Source: an uncultured Neisseriaceae bacterium
GTDB lineage: Bacteria; Pseudomonadota; Gammaproteobacteria; Burkholderiales; Neisseriaceae
Direction of reading: 5' to 3'
NCBI GenBank assembly: GCA_946481965.1
Contig: CAMLPN010000001.1
Coordinates: 56,480 to 120,479, forward strand
Length of the DNA stretch: 64,000 nt
Positions 9,942-18,059 of this stretch are shown here, piece by piece (position 1 is the first letter of the stretch; every line of letters starts with the position of its first letter). Below the pieces are notes generated by a model. That model ran no database searches, had not been told where the DNA came from, and worked only from the letters and a program-made list of their open reading frames with translations. Position numbers and translations under genes: made by a program.

Positions 9942-10505
9942 TTATTTGTCAGCAATAGTATGGATATGACGATAATTTGCTATCTTATCGTGAATAACTT
10001 TAAGTAGCTGTTGCAAGGTATGCTGTTGAGAGCGGGCACAAGCTTTGGCAGAGCTATCACAAATCAGACATGTTCTGGGTTCAATCGACAGCATTTTACG
10101 ACTGATAGCGATACCAGTATGCGGATCAAATACATCTATATCCCATAATCTGCCCAGTTGATGCTGTTGTTCAAGTTCAATTAATGAACGTTTAATTTCT
10201 ATTGCTTCGTGATCGGCTATTACCCAGAATCCCTCGCATCCGGTAATAGGAGCATGTAAATATTGATGAAGTATTGACCATTTTTCTTTCCTAATTAAGG
10301 TTTCAATAGCGCTTACAGCTTCATTAAATAGCAGATAGCTATCCTGAGTCAGTTTATACTTACCAGGCATATTGATGGTTAAAGAAATCAGTGTGCAATG
10401 ATATTGCTGCAATAACTGATTTTGTCGTTCTTGTCGATGTTCACGGGCTGTTAGTAGTTGTTCAAGCGTAATCGGTGTTGGATTGGTCATTTGTAAGTTT
10501 TGCAT
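9942..10505 (-). CDS. citX: Holo-citrate lyase synthase (apo-citrate lyase phosphoribosyl-dephospho-CoA transferase)
   Basis: CitX moves the 2'-(5''-triphosphoribosyl)-3'-dephospho-CoA group made by CitG onto Ser14 of the CitD acyl carrier. The 187-residue length fits the family, and the conserved core is visible: GCEGFWVI and, about 40 residues later, DIDVFDP. It is last in the cit series, 98 bases after citF, with a large hairpin in the gap. No strong ribosome site precedes the first ATG, and a second in-frame ATG lies five codons in, so the start is uncertain by a few residues. Weak initiation suits an enzyme needed in small amounts. Confidence 0.9.
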   Translation of the reverse strand: MQNLQMTNPTPITLEQLLTAREHRQERQNQLLQQYHCTLISLTINMPGKYKLTQDSYLLFNEAVSAIETLIRKEKWSILHQYLHAPITGCEGFWVIADHEAIEIKRSLIELEQQHQLGRLWDIDVFDPHTGIAISRKMLSIEPRTCLICDSSAKACARSQQHTLQQLLKVIHDKIANYRHIHTIADK

Positions 10506-10603: not shown

Positions 10604-12124
10604 TTAGTCTTGAACTTCACGTACTACATCAATGATTGAACCATCACGATAATGAACGATACCAACAATTTTATCTTTAAATTTGATTGGTTCTGGTTCT
10701 GTAGTTAAATCTATTGCACGCTGATAGAGCTCTTCGATAGTCAATACTGGCAGACCAGCATCTTTCAATCGTTTTGCTACTTCTGGACGGCTTGGATTAA
10801 CTGCGATACCGTGATCTGTTACCAATACGTCGATGCTTTCGCCCGGAGTAACAATGGTCGTAACTTTAGAAATTACGGTCGGAATACGGCTGCGAATCAA
10901 TGGTGCAACAATGATTGACAGGTTAGCGCCTGCGGCTGTATCACAGTGACCACCTGATGCTCCGCGCATTACACCATCTGAACCAGTCAGAACATTAACA
11001 TTAAAGTTAAGGTCAATTTCCAGTGCACTTAGAATAACGATATCTAAATGATCACAGGCAGCAGCCTTGGCAGCTGGATTGGCGTAATAGTTAGTGGAAA
11101 TTTCAAAATGATTCGGATTTTCACCCAAAGAAATACCTGCTGCATTATCAAAGCTTTGAGTATCCAACAATACTTTGATCAGACCTTTTTGATGAAGATC
11201 AACAATGCTTTGAGTAATACCACCTAAGGCGAAGCCAGCAGTGATATTTTTAGCCCGCATTTTGTCTTCCAAAAAGCGAGTACATGCTGTAGCAGCAGCA
11301 CCGGAACCAGTCTGAATAGAGAAGCCATCTTCAAAGTATCCAGAGTGTTCAATGACTTCAGCAGCGTAACGAGCGATCATGAGTTCACGCGGATTGCTGG
11401 TAATACGTACTGCACCAACGCTGATTTTAGTAGGATCACCCACCTGATCTACTTTAACAATGTAATCTACCTGATCCTGACGAATGCTGGCCGGATGATT
11501 TGGATAAGCAACAATATCTTCAGCCAGTAAAACTACTTTTTTGGCGTATTGTGCATCTACCATGGCGTAGCCAAGAGAACCACAGCGAGATTTGCCGGTT
11601 ACACTGTTAGCGTTACCAAATTCATCTGCTGTTGATACGGCTAAAAAGCTCACGTCTAGATTGATTACACCATCCTGAATGAGTTTAACGCGTCCGCCAT
11701 GAGAGTGAATGTGAACTGGATTATCCATCAAACCGTGTGAAATGGCATCAGCTAGTTTACCACGCATACCAGATGTATAAATCTGAGTGATTACGCCTGA
11801 TTTGATATATTCAATCAGTTTTTCATTACAAGACAGTAATGAGCTGGAAGCCAGAGTCAGGTTTTTGAAACCCATTTTGGCTAATATTCCAACGACCAGA
11901 TTGATAATTTTATCGCCTTCACGAAACGCATGATGAAAGCCGATGGTCATGCCATCTTTTAATCCAACTTTTTTAATGGCGTCTTCAATACTTTCACATA
12001 TTTTACGCTGATATTTAAGTTCTTTATCAGCCAAATAAGGCGTGGTTGTATTGGCACCGCTAAAAGCAGTCAGCCCAGAAATTTGCGGATATTGTTCTGC
12101 AATGGAATCGATTATTTTAGTCAT
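10604..12124 (-). CDS. citF: Citrate lyase alpha subunit (citrate:acetyl-ACP transferase)
   Basis: The alpha subunit swaps acetyl for citrate on the CitD carrier, making citryl-ACP and free acetate. Starting at MTKIIDSIAE gives 506 residues, the usual CitF length. A frame extending 28 residues further upstream would overlap citE and was rejected. Typical elements are the GFHHAFREGD segment, GSGAAATA, and the Gly-rich GASGGHCDTAAG near the C-terminal third, all characteristic of the CoA-transferase fold of CitF. It lies 13 bases after citE and before citX. Identification is firm. Confidence 0.96.
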   Translation of the reverse strand: MTKIIDSIAEQYPQISGLTAFSGANTTTPYLADKELKYQRKICESIEDAIKKVGLKDGMTIGFHHAFREGDKIINLVVGILAKMGFKNLTLASSSLLSCNEKLIEYIKSGVITQIYTSGMRGKLADAISHGLMDNPVHIHSHGGRVKLIQDGVINLDVSFLAVSTADEFGNANSVTGKSRCGSLGYAMVDAQYAKKVVLLAEDIVAYPNHPASIRQDQVDYIVKVDQVGDPTKISVGAVRITSNPRELMIARYAAEVIEHSGYFEDGFSIQTGSGAAATACTRFLEDKMRAKNITAGFALGGITQSIVDLHQKGLIKVLLDTQSFDNAAGISLGENPNHFEISTNYYANPAAKAAACDHLDIVILSALEIDLNFNVNVLTGSDGVMRGASGGHCDTAAGANLSIIVAPLIRSRIPTVISKVTTIVTPGESIDVLVTDHGIAVNPSRPEVAKRLKDAGLPVLTIEELYQRAIDLTTEPEPIKFKDKIVGIVHYRDGSIIDVVREVQD

Positions 12125-12137
12125 AGCTGCTCTGATA

Positions 12138-13019
12138 TTAATGTAAAAGATTATATTGGCTTGCCATTTCCAAAACCATTCTGGCTTGAGTGATGATAGG
12201 TGCATCAATCATTTTGCCATTTAAGGAAACAACACCCAGACCCTGCTGTTCAGCTTCTTCCGCTGCCTGAATAACAGCTTTGGCATTAGAGATTTCTTTA
12301 GCAGTAGGAGCATATACTTTATTTAATAATTCAATCTGACGCGGATTGATCAGGGATTTGCCATCAAAACCTAATTGTTTAGATTTAGTTGCTTCCTGAA
12401 TAAAGCCTTCGTCATTATTTACATCACCAAATACCACGTCGTAAGCCTGAATTTTAGCAACGCGGGCAGCATGTAATACCATGCAACGAGCATAAAATAA
12501 TTCAGTACCATCACCACGGGCACTGCGCATATCTACCAGATAGTCAAATGCAGCCAAAGCAATACCAACCATACGTGGGCTGGATTGAGCAATTGCCTGA
12601 GCATTCACTACCCCTTGGGCAGACTCAATGGCAGCAATAATTTTAGTAGACCCAACCGGGCGAACACCTGTTTGTTCAATTGATTCGATCAATTTTTCCA
12701 GTTCTTGGACATTTTCAGGTGTATGCGTCATTGGTAAACGAACCACATCAACACCTGCACGTACTACTGCTTCGACGTCATCTTTGAAAAAAGGTGTATC
12801 AATAGCATTGACACGCACTACTGTTTCAATGCCATAGCGTTTGTAAACCCCCATTTTTAAGGTTTGGGCAACGAGCAGACGAGCACTGTCTTTTTCAGAA
12901 ACTGCTACAGCATCTTCCAGATCAAACATAACTGAATCCGGACGGTAAACAAATGCAGTTGATAACATTGCTGCATTAGCGCCCGGTAAAAATAGCATAC
13001 TGCGACGAACTTTACTCAT
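12138..13019 (-). CDS. citE: Citrate lyase beta subunit (citryl-ACP lyase)
   Basis: CitE splits citryl-ACP into acetyl-ACP and oxaloacetate. Beginning at [13 protein letters not shown] the protein has 293 residues, standard for the family. The N-terminal [14 protein letters not shown], the metal and substrate region [14 protein letters not shown], the [10 protein letters not shown] strand and the late [12 protein letters not shown] are family hallmarks of the HpcH/HpaI aldolase fold. The start overlaps the citD stop by four bases (ATGA), which sets this Met over an upstream in-frame one and implies translational coupling. Oxaloacetate from this step must be processed by another enzyme; see the neighbouring FAH-family gene. 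Confidence 0.96.
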
Positions 13020-13306
13020 AATACTTGACTCCAGTTCAGGGTCGGATTTTCTAATGATCGTTGTACTGCACTCTGTACGCGGGCTTTGATAATACAATCT
13101 AATGCACCGCGATCTTCAATGATAAACAAACCATCAGATACGCCCAGATCCTGTAGCGTCTGATCTACAACATGTCTGATTTGATGGCCAAATTGTTTAT
13201 GTACATCGCTGTTAATAACAATTTCTAACCCTTGATTGGGTTCCACTTTAACCAGCAAATCGCTGGATTCAAGCGTTCCCGATAGGGCAGGTTTTTCAAT
13301 TTTCAT
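13016..13306 (-). CDS. citD: Citrate lyase acyl carrier protein (gamma subunit)
   Basis: This 96-residue carrier holds the dephospho-CoA-type prosthetic group. The attachment serine is Ser14 in the conserved GTLESSD segment at residues 10-16, exactly where the family has it. A good ribosome site (GAGGTAAACAA) precedes the ATG. The gene starts 25 bases after citC and overlaps citE by four bases. CitC acetylates the bound cofactor, CitX attaches it, and CitF and CitE act on it. Identification is firm. Confidence 0.95.
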
Positions 13307-13331: not shown

Positions 13332-14366
13332 TTAAGAAATGCTGAAATCATTATTTTTAAGGTACGACCAGGTAGTAGGTGGTACCAGATTTTCAATTGC
13401 TGCATAATTTTTTTCTGCTAAGAGTTTTCGCACTCTTGAAGCAGAAACAGCGTCCCCATCAATAACTAAACGTTCTAATTCGTGTACTGCAATAGGTGGA
13501 GTATTTGACGCAACTGGATTTTCTAACCAATTATGCATAGCCTGATTGTAGGCAGATGTGATCACGCTATAAGGTTCAGTGCCCACAAAACGCTGAGTAA
13601 TATTTAAGGTCGGTGCAAGATAGTTGCGGAACATCAATAAATCTACAGCCAGATAAGCTTGTTCGATTTGCTGGGCTGATTTTAAGAAATAAGTAGGGAA
13701 AGTTGCCCGTGATATTATATATTCAGAACCCAAAATTACCGATACGCGCGATAAATGCTGCACACCCTGACGCACTAAATCATAACGAACTTTTGTCGCA
13801 AATAAGGAAGCATCTTCGCTGACAACAAAAATATACAGCCATGGAACTTGTTTTAATGCCTGTTCAACAAGATAAAGGTGACCACGGGTGAACGGATTGG
13901 CATTCATAACAATAGCACCAGCTTCGTTATGCTGTTTCAGCTTAGATAACTGCTCGCAATAACGTTTGATACCCACAGGTGTATTTTCCATAAATACTAA
14001 TGTATCTGGAATGGTGACCAATGGATAAAAACCACATTGACGAAAGAGAATTTCGTTATGTGGTTTCGTGTAAAGAAAGAGCTTGTTGTATCCTTGATTT
14101 GCGGCAAATTTTTGAATGCGTTCGCTTAATTTAAGTGAAAGCTGACAGCCTTGATAGGCTGGCAGCATCGCTACACATTTAATTACATTGTGATCTAATC
14201 CTGCACAGGCTATAAGCTGATCATTATGCCGACCAACTAATAGTGTTTGAATTTGTTTATCATATTCCAGATCAACCTGTGCTAATAGTTTTCTGGCTTC
14301 AGCAATAATTTCTGGTCTTTTTTCAGGATTGATAAATTCAAAAACAATTTCTGTGTCAGCGAACAT
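13332..14366 (-). CDS. citC: [Citrate (pro-3S)-lyase] ligase
   Basis: CitC activates citrate lyase by ATP-dependent acetylation of the CitD prosthetic group. The 344-residue protein has an N-terminal acetyltransferase-like (GNAT) part (about residues 1-130). A nucleotidyltransferase domain follows with the signature NANPFTRGHLYLVEQA (NPFTxGH, about 155-170) and a C-terminal SASRVRKLL element, the ISSTxVR-type nucleotide motif. It starts five bases after the FAH-family gene stop, so the two are almost certainly cotranscribed. Length and order (citC-citD-citE-citF) match canonical citrate lyase clusters. Confidence 0.95.
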   Translation of the reverse strand: MFADTEIVFEFINPEKRPEIIAEARKLLAQVDLEYDKQIQTLLVGRHNDQLIACAGLDHNVIKCVAMLPAYQGCQLSLKLSERIQKFAANQGYNKLFLYTKPHNEILFRQCGFYPLVTIPDTLVFMENTPVGIKRYCEQLSKLKQHNEAGAIVMNANPFTRGHLYLVEQALKQVPWLYIFVVSEDASLFATKVRYDLVRQGVQHLSRVSVILGSEYIISRATFPTYFLKSAQQIEQAYLAVDLLMFRNYLAPTLNITQRFVGTEPYSVITSAYNQAMHNWLENPVASNTPPIAVHELERLVIDGDAVSASRVRKLLAEKNYAAIENLVPPTTWSYLKNNDFSIS

Positions 14367-14371
14367 ATTGA

Positions 14372-15208
14372 TTACTCGTTGGCAATAGTATTAGTTAAAT
14401 GACCAATGTTATCTATAATAACTTCAAGCTTATCACCAGCTTGCAAAAAGAGCGGCGGATTACGTTTTTTGCCCACACCGCCCGGCGAGCCAGTAATAAT
14501 GACATCACCAGGAGCCAGTGGCGTGAAAGTACTGATGTATTCAATTATATTGGGTACTTTATACACCATATTGCCCAAAAAATCATGCTGAACGCGTTGA
14601 TTATTTAAAATAGTTTGAATAGTCAATCCATCCAGATCGGGTACTTCATCAATTGTGGTCAGACAAGGACCAAAAGCACCGGTTTTAAGCCAGTTTTTCC
14701 CAGCAGTAAACCATTCGTATTGCCAGTCCCGAACGGAACCATCCATATAGCAGCTATAACCGGCAATATAATGAAAAGCATCATCTGCCTTAACACGATA
14801 ACAGGGTTTACCGATGATAATGGCCAGTTCACCTTCGTAATCGAATTGATTCGTATAGGCTGGTTTAATAACGTTCTGCAGATGACCTATCTGAGAGTCA
14901 CTGAAACGGGTAAATAAAGTCATAGCATTTTCTGTGGCAGAAAATTCTTTCCTTTTCTCCTTATAATTCATGCCAACGCATAGAATCTTATTCGGATTGG
15001 GAATGACAGGTAAAAACTCAATTAAGTCAAAAGAAATTAATGAATCTGCTTGTATTTGACTAACGCGAGCTAGTGCAGCTGAATCGTTAAGCAGAGATTT
15101 TAAATCTGGATATTTATTACCAAAACGCGCGCTGAGGTCAATGATACCTTCCTCAAGCATAACACCGTAACCAGGTTTACCAGCAAACAGGTAACTGGCT
15201 AATTTCAT
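14372..15208 (-). CDS. FAH-family protein in the citrate lyase operon, candidate oxaloacetate decarboxylase or tautomerase
   Basis: The 278-residue protein has the fumarylacetoacetate-hydrolase fold signatures: CVGMNY (78-82), DYEGELA with apparent metal ligands Glu125 and Glu127, YMDGSVRDWQ with Asp156 and Gln163, and TGSPGGVG (239-246). Characterised FAH-fold enzymes include acylpyruvases, human FAHD1 and a corynebacterial oxaloacetate decarboxylase (recalled, not searched). The usual NY-x2-H-x2-E lid motif reads NYKEKRKE here, so the His is Lys85 and Glu88 is kept. It has a strong AGGAG site and lies between the citrate transporter and citC. No oad genes are in the window. Decarboxylation or tautomerisation of oxaloacetate from citrate lyase is my inference. 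Confidence 0.85.
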   Translation of the reverse strand: MKLASYLFAGKPGYGVMLEEGIIDLSARFGNKYPDLKSLLNDSAALARVSQIQADSLISFDLIEFLPVIPNPNKILCVGMNYKEKRKEFSATENAMTLFTRFSDSQIGHLQNVIKPAYTNQFDYEGELAIIIGKPCYRVKADDAFHYIAGYSCYMDGSVRDWQYEWFTAGKNWLKTGAFGPCLTTIDEVPDLDGLTIQTILNNQRVQHDFLGNMVYKVPNIIEYISTFTPLAPGDVIITGSPGGVGKKRNPPLFLQAGDKLEVIIDNIGHLTNTIANE

Positions 15209-15315: not shown

Positions 15316-16689
15316 TTAAGAGAGTGGATTGATATAAGACAAAAAATTTCCTAATATTAATAAAGACAGCGATACATTGATTGCACCACCAATACGGGTA
15401 GCAATCTGAGCAAATGGCATTAACTCCATACGCTCAGCAGCAGTCAGAATGGCTACATCACCAGTTCCGCCTTGACCGCTTTGGCAACAAGAAATAACAG
15501 CAGTATCAATTGGGTACATGCCCATTTTCTTGCTGACAAAGAAACCTGTTGTCACCAGAGATATCACAGTTGATAAGATAACGATGATATTAATAAGCGT
15601 GAATGCATCAACGATTCTTTGCCATGGTGTAATGGCTACGCCAACAGCAAAAAGAATTGGATAGGTTACCGAAGTTTGGAAGAATTTATAAACAACTTGT
15701 GAGCCACTCAATACTTTAGGAGATACTGCGGAAGTCAGTTTGACTAAAATTGCTGCAAACAACATACCAATGGGGGCAGGTAAACCAATCAATTTGTGTA
15801 ATATCATACCCACCATATACAACATCGTAGCGAGTAAAACACCGCTGGCAAAGGTTGTCACGTCATTAGTAGACTCAATTTTGGCATGTAAAGATAGACT
15901 ATCTTCTTCACCTGAAGGTAATATTTTTCCATTACCGGTTAGATGTGGATATTTTTTTCCAAGACGATTAAGTACGCCTGCACAGAGAATACCCGTTAAA
16001 CCACCTAGCATCACAATAGGCAATACTTGACCTAGTGCATCACCTTGCTGAATACCCAGTATTGAAGCATAACCCATTGATAGTGGAATTGCGCCTTCAC
16101 CCACACCACCGGCCATAATAGGCAATACTAAGAAAAAGAAAGTGTGAGATGGAGATAAACCCAATAAGGTACCAACAATCACACCGGTTATCATGCCAAC
16201 AATTTCACCACATAACATGGGTCCAAATATTTTTAAAAAGCCCTTTATCAAAGTAGAGCGATCCATACTCATAATACTGCCGACAATAATGCAGCATATA
16301 TATAGATAAAGAATATGCGTACTTTTATAAAACGTAGTGGTTGCGGTTACAATTGGTTCTGGTAGAAGTTTGTAATGTACCAATGCAGAAGGAATGAATG
16401 TAGCACAAATAGCTGCGGCGCCCATTTTCCCCAGAATGGGAATACGTTTGCCAAATTCACCACAAAGAAAACCGAAAAAGGCGCAAGTAACCACCATTAC
16501 CACAATATCCGAAGGTAATTTGTCGGTCAGGAAAACCTCAATAAATATCAGTAATCCGGCAAATATAAAAAAGGGTAGAGGGATAATACCGATTTTGTAA
16601 TTATCCAGTATGCGCCACCAGCCGGTGGGCCAGAAACTGGTATTTTGCTCAAGAACAGGTTTATCTGAAGTTTTGTTGGATGGATCCAT
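15316..16689 (-). CDS. Citrate/2-hydroxycarboxylate transporter (2HCT family, CitS/CimH type)
   Basis: This is a 457-residue inner-membrane secondary transporter with about 11 hydrophobic segments. The two cytoplasmic-loop signatures of the 2HCT family are present: AGGVGEGAIPLS in the N-terminal half and CQSGQGGTGDVAIL in the C-terminal half. The Arg in ATRIGGA near the end corresponds to the carboxylate-binding Arg of CitS (family knowledge). The start is the ATG after GGGAGAA. A longer frame adds 12 residues that overlap this ribosome site. Position just upstream of the lyase genes makes citrate the likely substrate, but malate- and lactate-using members of the family exist, so specificity is inferred. 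Confidence 0.92.
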   Translation of the reverse strand: MDPSNKTSDKPVLEQNTSFWPTGWWRILDNYKIGIIPLPFFIFAGLLIFIEVFLTDKLPSDIVVMVVTCAFFGFLCGEFGKRIPILGKMGAAAICATFIPSALVHYKLLPEPIVTATTTFYKSTHILYLYICCIIVGSIMSMDRSTLIKGFLKIFGPMLCGEIVGMITGVIVGTLLGLSPSHTFFFLVLPIMAGGVGEGAIPLSMGYASILGIQQGDALGQVLPIVMLGGLTGILCAGVLNRLGKKYPHLTGNGKILPSGEEDSLSLHAKIESTNDVTTFASGVLLATMLYMVGMILHKLIGLPAPIGMLFAAILVKLTSAVSPKVLSGSQVVYKFFQTSVTYPILFAVGVAITPWQRIVDAFTLINIIVILSTVISLVTTGFFVSKKMGMYPIDTAVISCCQSGQGGTGDVAILTAAERMELMPFAQIATRIGGAINVSLSLLILGNFLSYINPLS

Positions 16690-17150
16690 AATACTTTTCT
16701 CCCGTTTAATAAAAAAATTAAACAAAATTGAAAAAGTTAACTACATGATTAACCAAAGCACAGTTAGCCGGCCGTGCTGACGATACAAAGGTTGTCAGGC
16801 AGCAAGAAAAACACTTATTTTTTAAAGCTATGAATGTTCCCAATTGAAAACGGCGAATTCTAACACTGCAATTCGTCACAATTTGTTCAAATTAGTCACT
16901 TAAATAAGTTTTAACGAAAAAAAATTTCAATATGACAAGGTATTTCTCTATTCTCATTGCAGCTATGTCTTGGATTTTAAAATAATATGATATTTAAATA
17001 ATTTAAATTATACAAAATATGAAAATTAAAATGCATAAATGTAAGATTATTTAATTATCTGATAAAACAATAAATTTTATTATTATATAAATTAACTGAT
17101 AATAAGATTTCTTTCAATCAAATTTACTTTTAAATTTTAAAAAAGGATAT
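16690..17150. other. Spacer between citG and the citrate transporter, probable cit operon promoter
   Basis: There is no gene in this 461-base stretch. It separates citG from the transporter and is the likely site of the promoter for the transporter-FAH-citCDEFX run. A GC-rich palindromic core (CGGCCG) lies near 16770. I could not assign a sigma-54 site or a CitB-type operator by eye. Confidence 0.4.
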
Positions 17151-18059
17151 TTAATCGGGGAAATGAGCTAAAAACCACGTGACAGCAATTAAATCTGCAC
17201 TACCGCCAGGGCTCAATCTTTTACTATTCATTACTTGATCAAAAATAATTAATTCTTCTATACCATTAGGTGTCAGTACACCACCTTTTTGTAATAGTAA
17301 TTTGCTTTGATTTTGTACCCAGCTTAATCCTTCTAGTCCTCCTCGATGAACAATATTGGTGTCAGGATTATATGCCATTAGCATTAATAAAGTTTGTAAT
17401 AAACTTTTGGTTTCTGTATGTCCTTGAGAAAGATTTTGCCGATAACAAGGTAAAGCTTTTTCACGAACTATGCGATAACCACTTTCTGCCTCTCCACGAG
17501 CTCCTGTCAGCTGAAATTGGTTGAACAATCTTTCTCCTGCAGTGGCGGCTTTGTTGTTATGAAGATCCTGTGCCACTAACCCCTGACATAAAGCAGCAAC
17601 AATGTTGGTAATTGAAGTCACTGATATTATTTTTGTTTGTTTTTCCAGTCTTCCAATAGCAGCCAGTAGCAATAAAAATGCAAAAATAGCACCTTTATGA
17701 GTATTGATTCCTTGGGTAGCCTGAAACATTTTTTGTTCTGCAGCTTGTCCGATTAAACGCAGTTCGGCAAAGAATGGTTTATCAGACAGGTTATGATGAT
17801 TCTGACCAAATTGATAACTATGCTGAAAAAAAGGCGTGATAGCCTCAATACTGGCTAAAAATGTGTTGATATCCATATCCTGATGAGCGCCAGTATTGGC
17901 CTGATCAACTAAACCGGGCTTTGGAGTAAGATATATTTCTGTTAATAATGCTTGTTGTGCTAGTTTAGGGATTGGAAGAATTTGCGATTGTGATGCAGAA
18001 GAATAATTGTGCAAAGAAGTTGTCATTTTATCAATATTGGCCACTTGAGTAGTGTGCAT
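17151..18059 (-). CDS. citG: Triphosphoribosyl-dephospho-CoA synthase
   Basis: CitG condenses ATP and dephospho-CoA into the citrate lyase prosthetic-group precursor that CitX then attaches. The 302-residue protein shows the family core: TPKPGLVDQANTGAHQDMD (about residues 45-63), GINTHKGAIFAF mid-protein, and a late HRGGLEGL. The N-terminus is about 15-20 residues longer than needed. A second Met at residue 12 is an alternative start, and neither has a strong ribosome site. It is 461 bases upstream of the transporter, so it may have its own promoter. CitG, CitX and CitC together show that the whole activation path is encoded here. Confidence 0.92.
   Translation of the reverse strand: MHTTQVANIDKMTTSLHNYSSASQSQILPIPKLAQQALLTEIYLTPKPGLVDQANTGAHQDMDINTFLASIEAITPFFQHSYQFGQNHHNLSDKPFFAELRLIGQAAEQKMFQATQGINTHKGAIFAFLLLLAAIGRLEKQTKIISVTSITNIVAALCQGLVAQDLHNNKAATAGERLFNQFQLTGARGEAESGYRIVREKALPCYRQNLSQGHTETKSLLQTLLMLMAYNPDTNIVHRGGLEGLSWVQNQSKLLLQKGGVLTPNGIEELIIFDQVMNSKRLSPGGSADLIAVTWFLAHFPD

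Follow-up and report, generated by a model that had tools for sequence, protein, structure and literature searches.

Among the oxaloacetate decarboxylases of citrate fermentation, OadGAB is a biotin-dependent, sodium-pumping membrane complex. CitM has the malic-enzyme fold and is encoded beside a 2HCT-family carrier. In lactic acid bacteria, it is described as a soluble malic-type oxaloacetate decarboxylase of citrate fermentation (PMC8100219). Here, we analysed a gene for a 278-amino-acid protein of FAH fold (14372..15208, minus strand; PF01557, 182.6 bits against a curated cut-off of 23.9) that lies in a citrate lyase operon. The operon is part of a 64,000-nucleotide stretch of DNA from an uncultured Neisseriaceae bacterium, hereafter the window. 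The protein occupies the same citrate-operon niche as OadGAB, to which it is unrelated in sequence, and is likewise unrelated to CitM. We propose, with a probability of about 0.55, that it is a dedicated soluble, metal-dependent oxaloacetate decarboxylase used in place of the membrane pump OadGAB.

Several FAH-fold relatives have been described. YisK of Bacillus subtilis (8sky, 8sut) has a lid His, unlike the window protein, and is presented in PMC10825186 as mainly a tautomerase. Cg1458 and human FAHD1 are also close to the window protein; FAHD1 is shorter, mitochondrial and equipped with a His30–Glu33 dyad. E. coli YcgM and a second FAH protein of the window genome are about 30% identical to the window protein and keep the lid His. 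Across the genus, a YcgM-like gene was matched in 14 of 14 genomes and the Lys-lid gene described below in three, the same three that carry citF. The YcgM-like FAH is a separate gene in the window genome, which rules out a housekeeping YcgM identity for our protein.

In Pectobacterium, a citYCDEFXG operon has been reported, and the passages of PMC7843439 that concern it give citY only as 'subunits of citrate lyase'. By its position, citY is probably the same gene as the window FAH gene. The name clashes with Klebsiella citYZ, which is a two-component system. We found no functional study of the FAH gene of cit operons in the literature on citrate lyase, tartrate dehydratase, FAH and oxaloacetate decarboxylase, and one may have been published elsewhere.

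A lysine at the lid histidine position

The lid of the window protein reads N81-Y82-K83-E84-K85-R86-K87-E88 and aligns with the FAHD1 lid NYADHVRE (His30, Glu33). In five structure-match alignments, solved relatives have His in the column of Lys85 (codon 14954..14956; this and all codons below on the minus strand). Nor has the His been displaced to another position. We matched 7551 homologues and compared the best 120 together with the query. Lys85, Glu88, Glu125, Glu127, Asp156, Arg160, Gln163 and Lys171 are kept in all 121 of these sequences, which rules out Lys85 as a mutation of one genome. The original prediction of a Lys in place of the lid His is thus borne out by the solved relatives and FAHD1, with His at no other position, and describes a trait of a whole subfamily.

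Apart from the lid, the catalytic site appears intact. Glu125 and Glu127 (codons 125–127, 14828..14836) and Asp156 form the E-x-E...D metal-ligand pattern of the FAH superfamily and are predicted ligands by sequence. Codons 156–163 (14720..14743) hold Asp156, Arg160 and Gln163, which align with FAHD1 D102, R106 and Q109, and Lys171 (14696..14698) aligns with K123. Glu125, Glu127, Asp156 and Gln163 had been noted as kept at the outset, and Arg160 and Lys171 can now be added. The Gln and Lys of the Cg1458/YisK-type decarboxylation mechanism are therefore present and invariant (Gln163, Lys171), as are the residues required for tautomerase activity (FAHD1 D102 and R106, here Asp156 and Arg160). 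The lid His–Glu dyad of FAHD1-type acylpyruvate hydrolases is incomplete, with Lys85 for His and Glu88 kept.

Among 80 named loci found with the FAH protein, 56 have a Lys lid and 24 a His lid; a tree of 137 rows held 111 and 26, respectively. Constraining the Lys rows to one clade gave a likelihood above that of the free search (approximately unbiased test, p-AU 0.599). In the free quick tree, the root of the very long YcgM branch falls within the Lys rows, so that two lid changes are required. Thus, the data are compatible with a single origin of the Lys lid as one clade, without proving it. Arg101 (FAHD1 Lys47), near the lid in sequence, is common to 25 of the 26 His-lid rows as well, and its change is therefore older than the Lys lid. 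One Lys-lid branch (L030, L034, L041 and L190) sits amid peptide-transport-like, D-aminopeptidase and beta-lactamase-fold genes; its three named loci read FMDATVRDMQ, as opposed to YMDGSVRDWQ in the cit-linked proteins.

Exchange of the FAH gene with OadAB in citrate lyase operons

A sample of 394 genomes, from the order of a Raoultella planticola genome, was searched by citF, since a search with the FAH protein would bias the sample. Each citF locus was taken with 9 kb per side where the contig permitted. This gave 72 strong matches to citF, spread over 66 genomes. The FAH gene lies directly before citC in 44 of the 72 operons and is missing from 28. All 44 citC-linked copies have the Lys lid, so that the His-to-Lys change first noted in the window holds across this survey.

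The carriers of these operons reveal a clear pattern. All 41 operons with a 2HCT carrier have either the FAH gene (38) or OadAB (3); none has both and none has neither. The remaining six FAH operons have MFS (four) or Mem_trans (two) carriers. A DASS carrier gene lies in the stretch of 23 of the 28 FAH-less operons, four others have OadAB and one is cut by a contig end. Two FAH operons also have a DASS gene in their stretch (L185, L186). Among the 80 named loci, 30 show the FAH gene followed by citrate lyase genes, 25 of them with a preceding 2HCT carrier.

Counting in reverse, these 394 genomes gave 53 FAH matches at E ≤ 1e-60, of which 52 have the Lys lid and one the His lid. The Lys-lid matches comprise the 44 before citC, single copies preceding a remnant of citC (L195) and adjoining ttdAB (L192), and six elsewhere. 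L195 is a decaying citrate operon in which CitA, CitB, 2HCT and FAH are open and citC is only a 161-amino-acid piece; citD, citE and citF were not recognised downstream of that piece, and the genome (G701) has two further citrate lyase operons.

Among the 66 genomes with citF, 15 gave an OadB match, namely 3 of 39 with an FAH-cit operon versus 12 of 27 without. The three are G512 (a weaker match), G678 and G701, the last having both operon kinds, one with OadAB (L132) and one with FAH (L182). In the twelve, OadAB lies in the cit locus in three (G867, G693 and G633) and elsewhere in nine, which have DASS-type operons. Among 17 named FAH-cit genomes tested for OadB, only Phytobacter was positive. 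The FAH gene and OadAB thus replace each other in citrate operons that share a type of carrier. The presence of OadGAB would have spoken against the original prediction, and a search of the draft genome to which the window belongs (94% complete, 79 contigs) gave no OAD_beta match. One malic enzyme is encoded there.

The title of Kastner 2002 reportedly names CitW as a citrate/acetate antiporter. Operons of the E. coli type have a citrate/succinate carrier and require no decarboxylase, since reduction of oxaloacetate can supply the succinate. CitT is described as a citrate-succinate antiporter (PMC2735749) and CitW as a citrate/acetate antiporter (PMC7843439). By analogy, the 2HCT carrier of the window may function like CitW, and an acetate-exporting carrier fits a pathway that is obliged to decarboxylate.

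Candidate functions of the Lys-lid protein

The neighbouring citrate lyase, tartrate dehydratase and oad genes, together with the exchange with OadAB at the same kind of carrier, make oxaloacetate a well-supported substrate. Of the initial proposal of an oxaloacetate decarboxylase or tautomerase, the substrate is therefore supported by context, while the reaction has to be weighed. We suggest that citrate would be imported by the 2HCT carrier against a product (acetate, if it resembles CitW) and split into acetate and oxaloacetate by the CitCDEFXG system. The FAH protein would hold oxaloacetate via a metal on Glu125, Glu127 and Asp156. Gln163 would rotate the scissile bond and Lys171 manage protons, CO2 being released to leave pyruvate. 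Lys85 may supply the proton that quenches the enolpyruvate, which is our own proposal.

Acylpyruvate hydrolysis is predicted to be lost, because the water-activating His–Glu dyad is gone. As set out in PMC8398924, this dyad activates water in hydrolysis, and the metal, Gln and Lys carry out decarboxylation; the His-to-Lys change should thus remove the former and may spare the latter. The same source considers that the dyad-held water possibly also acts in enolate quenching.

Three findings favour decarboxylation: the gene and Oad replace each other, the carriers follow the pattern above, and the genome has a second FAH of YcgM type. If the protein is a decarboxylase, its pairing with an exchanger would parallel, in a Gram-negative bacterium, the citP/citM scheme known from lactic acid bacteria. 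More tentatively, and at a little under even odds, we envisage that citrate fermentation has a third kind of oxaloacetate decarboxylase in addition to OadGAB and CitM. It would be a soluble FAH-fold enzyme with one His-to-Lys origin and an enolpyruvate-quenching Lys, used without a sodium-pumping decarboxylase, and would extend to citrate, tartrate and other oxaloacetate-yielding pathways. If so, many Oad-less citrate lyase bacteria, including insect-gut and plant-associated ones, would have an enzyme for the decarboxylation step that is otherwise missing. The dispute over FAH-fold decarboxylases and tautomerases would also gain a family in which the operon dictates the natural substrate. Moreover, a natural His-to-Lys switch that is compatible with a single origin offers a clean test case of structure and function.

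Several observations weigh against a decarboxylase. The FAHD enzymes tested are all reported to favour tautomerisation strongly over decarboxylation, by a mean ratio of about 20,000 to 1 (PMC10825186). PMC12176266, by contrast, argues that tautomerisation serves decarboxylation. OadB coexists with the FAH-cit operon in G678, G701, Phytobacter and, weakly, G512. A decarboxylase does not seem obligatory, because 15 of the 27 FAH-less citF genomes also lack OadB, and the malic enzyme of the window genome might itself act on oxaloacetate. Tolumonas (L047) and Formivibrio (L043) have the Lys-lid gene together with oadA and oadB. A Klebsiella plasmid carries it close to a gene annotated as 4-carboxy-4-hydroxy-2-oxoadipate aldolase/oxaloacetate decarboxylase. 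No cit, ttd or oad neighbour is seen in 26 of the 111 Lys-lid rows, at least three of which (L025, L033 and L039) lie at contig ends. Finally, small Orbaceae-looking genomes make up most of the 394-genome sample, so the survey counts are not independent.

The main alternative, which we consider less probable although it accounts for some of these observations, is an oxaloacetate tautomerase dedicated to the pathway. Its role would be to turn the enol into the keto form for Oad, malate dehydrogenase and transaminases, and to avert the inhibition of succinate dehydrogenase by the enol. The gene follows ttdAB, and tartrate dehydration should yield enol-oxaloacetate first. Two loci pair the gene with OadA and OadB, and one with the annotated oxaloacetate-decarboxylating aldolase. 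Tautomerisation is, moreover, the chief measured activity of YcgM, YisK and FAHD1, and the FAHD1 exchanges D102A R106A, whose positions are kept as Asp156 and Arg160, are reported to abolish tautomerisation (PMC10825186). However, a YcgM-like FAH is already encoded in the genome, and the Lys-lid gene is absent from 4 citrate operons with OadAB and 23 with a DASS carrier, which would yield oxaloacetate in equal amounts. A tautomerase would also leave the exchange with Oad unexplained.

We consider it improbable that the protein has kept or gained another activity, hydrolysis or isomerisation of a 2-oxo or 2,4-dioxo acid, that clears a by-product in citrate operons. Such 2,4-dioxo acids are substrates of many FAH-fold enzymes, and some Lys-lid relatives lie beside sugar-acid dehydratase-like and DHDPS-like genes. 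However, the His of the water-activating dyad is missing in every Lys-lid row, the protein scores far under the cut-offs of the NCBIfam hydrolase and isomerase models, and we know of no citrate lyase by-product that requires such an enzyme. A role as a regulatory or otherwise non-catalytic partner of citrate lyase, or of the ligase, would suit the fixed position immediately ahead of citC in all 44 operons that have the gene, but is most improbable given that the metal and catalytic residues are all kept apart from the lid His, that 28 of 72 operons lack the gene and that relatives occur away from citrate lyase.

The window operon and its relatives

As originally read, the gene follows the citrate transporter and ends five bases before citC. 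All genes of the locus are on the minus strand, in the order citG, 2HCT carrier, FAH gene, citC, citD, citE, citF and citX. The plus strand of 14372–15208 has 12 stops, which places the FAH open reading frame on the minus strand. The 2HCT carrier (15316..16725 as listed; PF03390, 475 bits) scores under the NCBIfam cut-offs for CCS and CitS, and an ATG at 16689 after GGGAGAA is its likelier start. The citrate lyase set is complete: citC, the ligase (13332..14366, TIGR00124), citD, the acyl carrier protein (13016..13306, TIGR01608), citF (10604..12208 as listed, TIGR01584), citX (9942..10505, TIGR03124) and citG, upstream of the carrier (17151..18059, TIGR03125), are over their NCBIfam cut-offs. 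The sixth gene, citE (12138..13097 as listed), falls slightly below (TIGR01588, 434.0 bits against 443.4). The true starts of citE and citF probably lie inside the listed reading frames.

The predicted model of the FAH protein has a predicted local distance difference test (pLDDT) score of 96, and its best structural matches are all of FAH fold. No NCBIfam model is over its cut-off for this protein. HpaG/HpcE isomerase-decarboxylase, a name sometimes seen in public annotation, was rejected (132.4 bits against a cut-off of 276.4; 83.9 against 228.65), as was 2,4-didehydro-3-deoxy-L-rhamnonate hydrolase (137.3 against 500). Public annotation of the gene and its relatives is generic or misleading, with hydrolase or aromatic-pathway decarboxylase labels. 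No citAB-like two-component genes were found across the 64 kb window or in the stretches taken around L106 and L107, its two sister operons, whereas citAB adjoins most FAH-cit operons of the other, 394-genome order.

Away from citrate lyase, L(+)-tartrate dehydratase genes neighbour 5 of the 111 Lys-lid rows, which represent two changes on the tree. In L054, both dehydratase subunits are over NCBIfam cut-offs, and Raoultella and Pantoea plasmids carry annotated ttdA and ttdB followed by the FAH gene. The order in Azospirillum is malic enzyme, Lys-lid FAH and citCDEFXG. A 4-oxalomesaconate tautomerase is annotated near the aldolase of the Klebsiella plasmid locus. The rest of the 26 rows without cit, ttd or oad have DHDPS-like aldolase and MFS carrier, sugar-acid dehydratase-like, LeuCD-like, peptidase or phosphotransferase system neighbours. 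Oxaloacetate is thus a shared theme of Lys-lid loci without being a rule. Two Klebsiella plasmid segments flanked by insertion sequences carry a Lys-lid or related FAH, one with gallate-type genes (L197) and one with a LeuCD-like pair, an alpha/beta hydrolase and LysR (L201); each search matched 66 Klebsiella plasmid records.

Strong citF matches occurred in only 2 of 369 genomes of a class-wide sample, one being the window's own, and in 1 of 47 genomes in the order of G119. In the family, 6 of 83 genomes have citF, and the three outside the genus have FAH-less operons with a DASS gene in the stretch. The nearest relatives of the operon outside the genus are Orbaceae-like (protein names Orbus, Utexia, Gilliamella and Frischella), which suggests transfer between insect gut bacteria. 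Judged by its dihydrolipoyl dehydrogenase, the host is closest, among named organisms, to Neisseriaceae bacterium ESL0693 (84%). The operon does not stand out as foreign by base composition (39.7% guanine plus cytosine, against 37.0% for the window minus the operon and citG). Within the genus, CitX (64–70%) and CitG (66–71%) are far less conserved than CitD, CitE and CitF (95–98%), reflecting either fast evolution or different histories. In another genome of the family, citF (L101, G400:C1:649642-651039) has an in-frame TAA and is perhaps a pseudogene.
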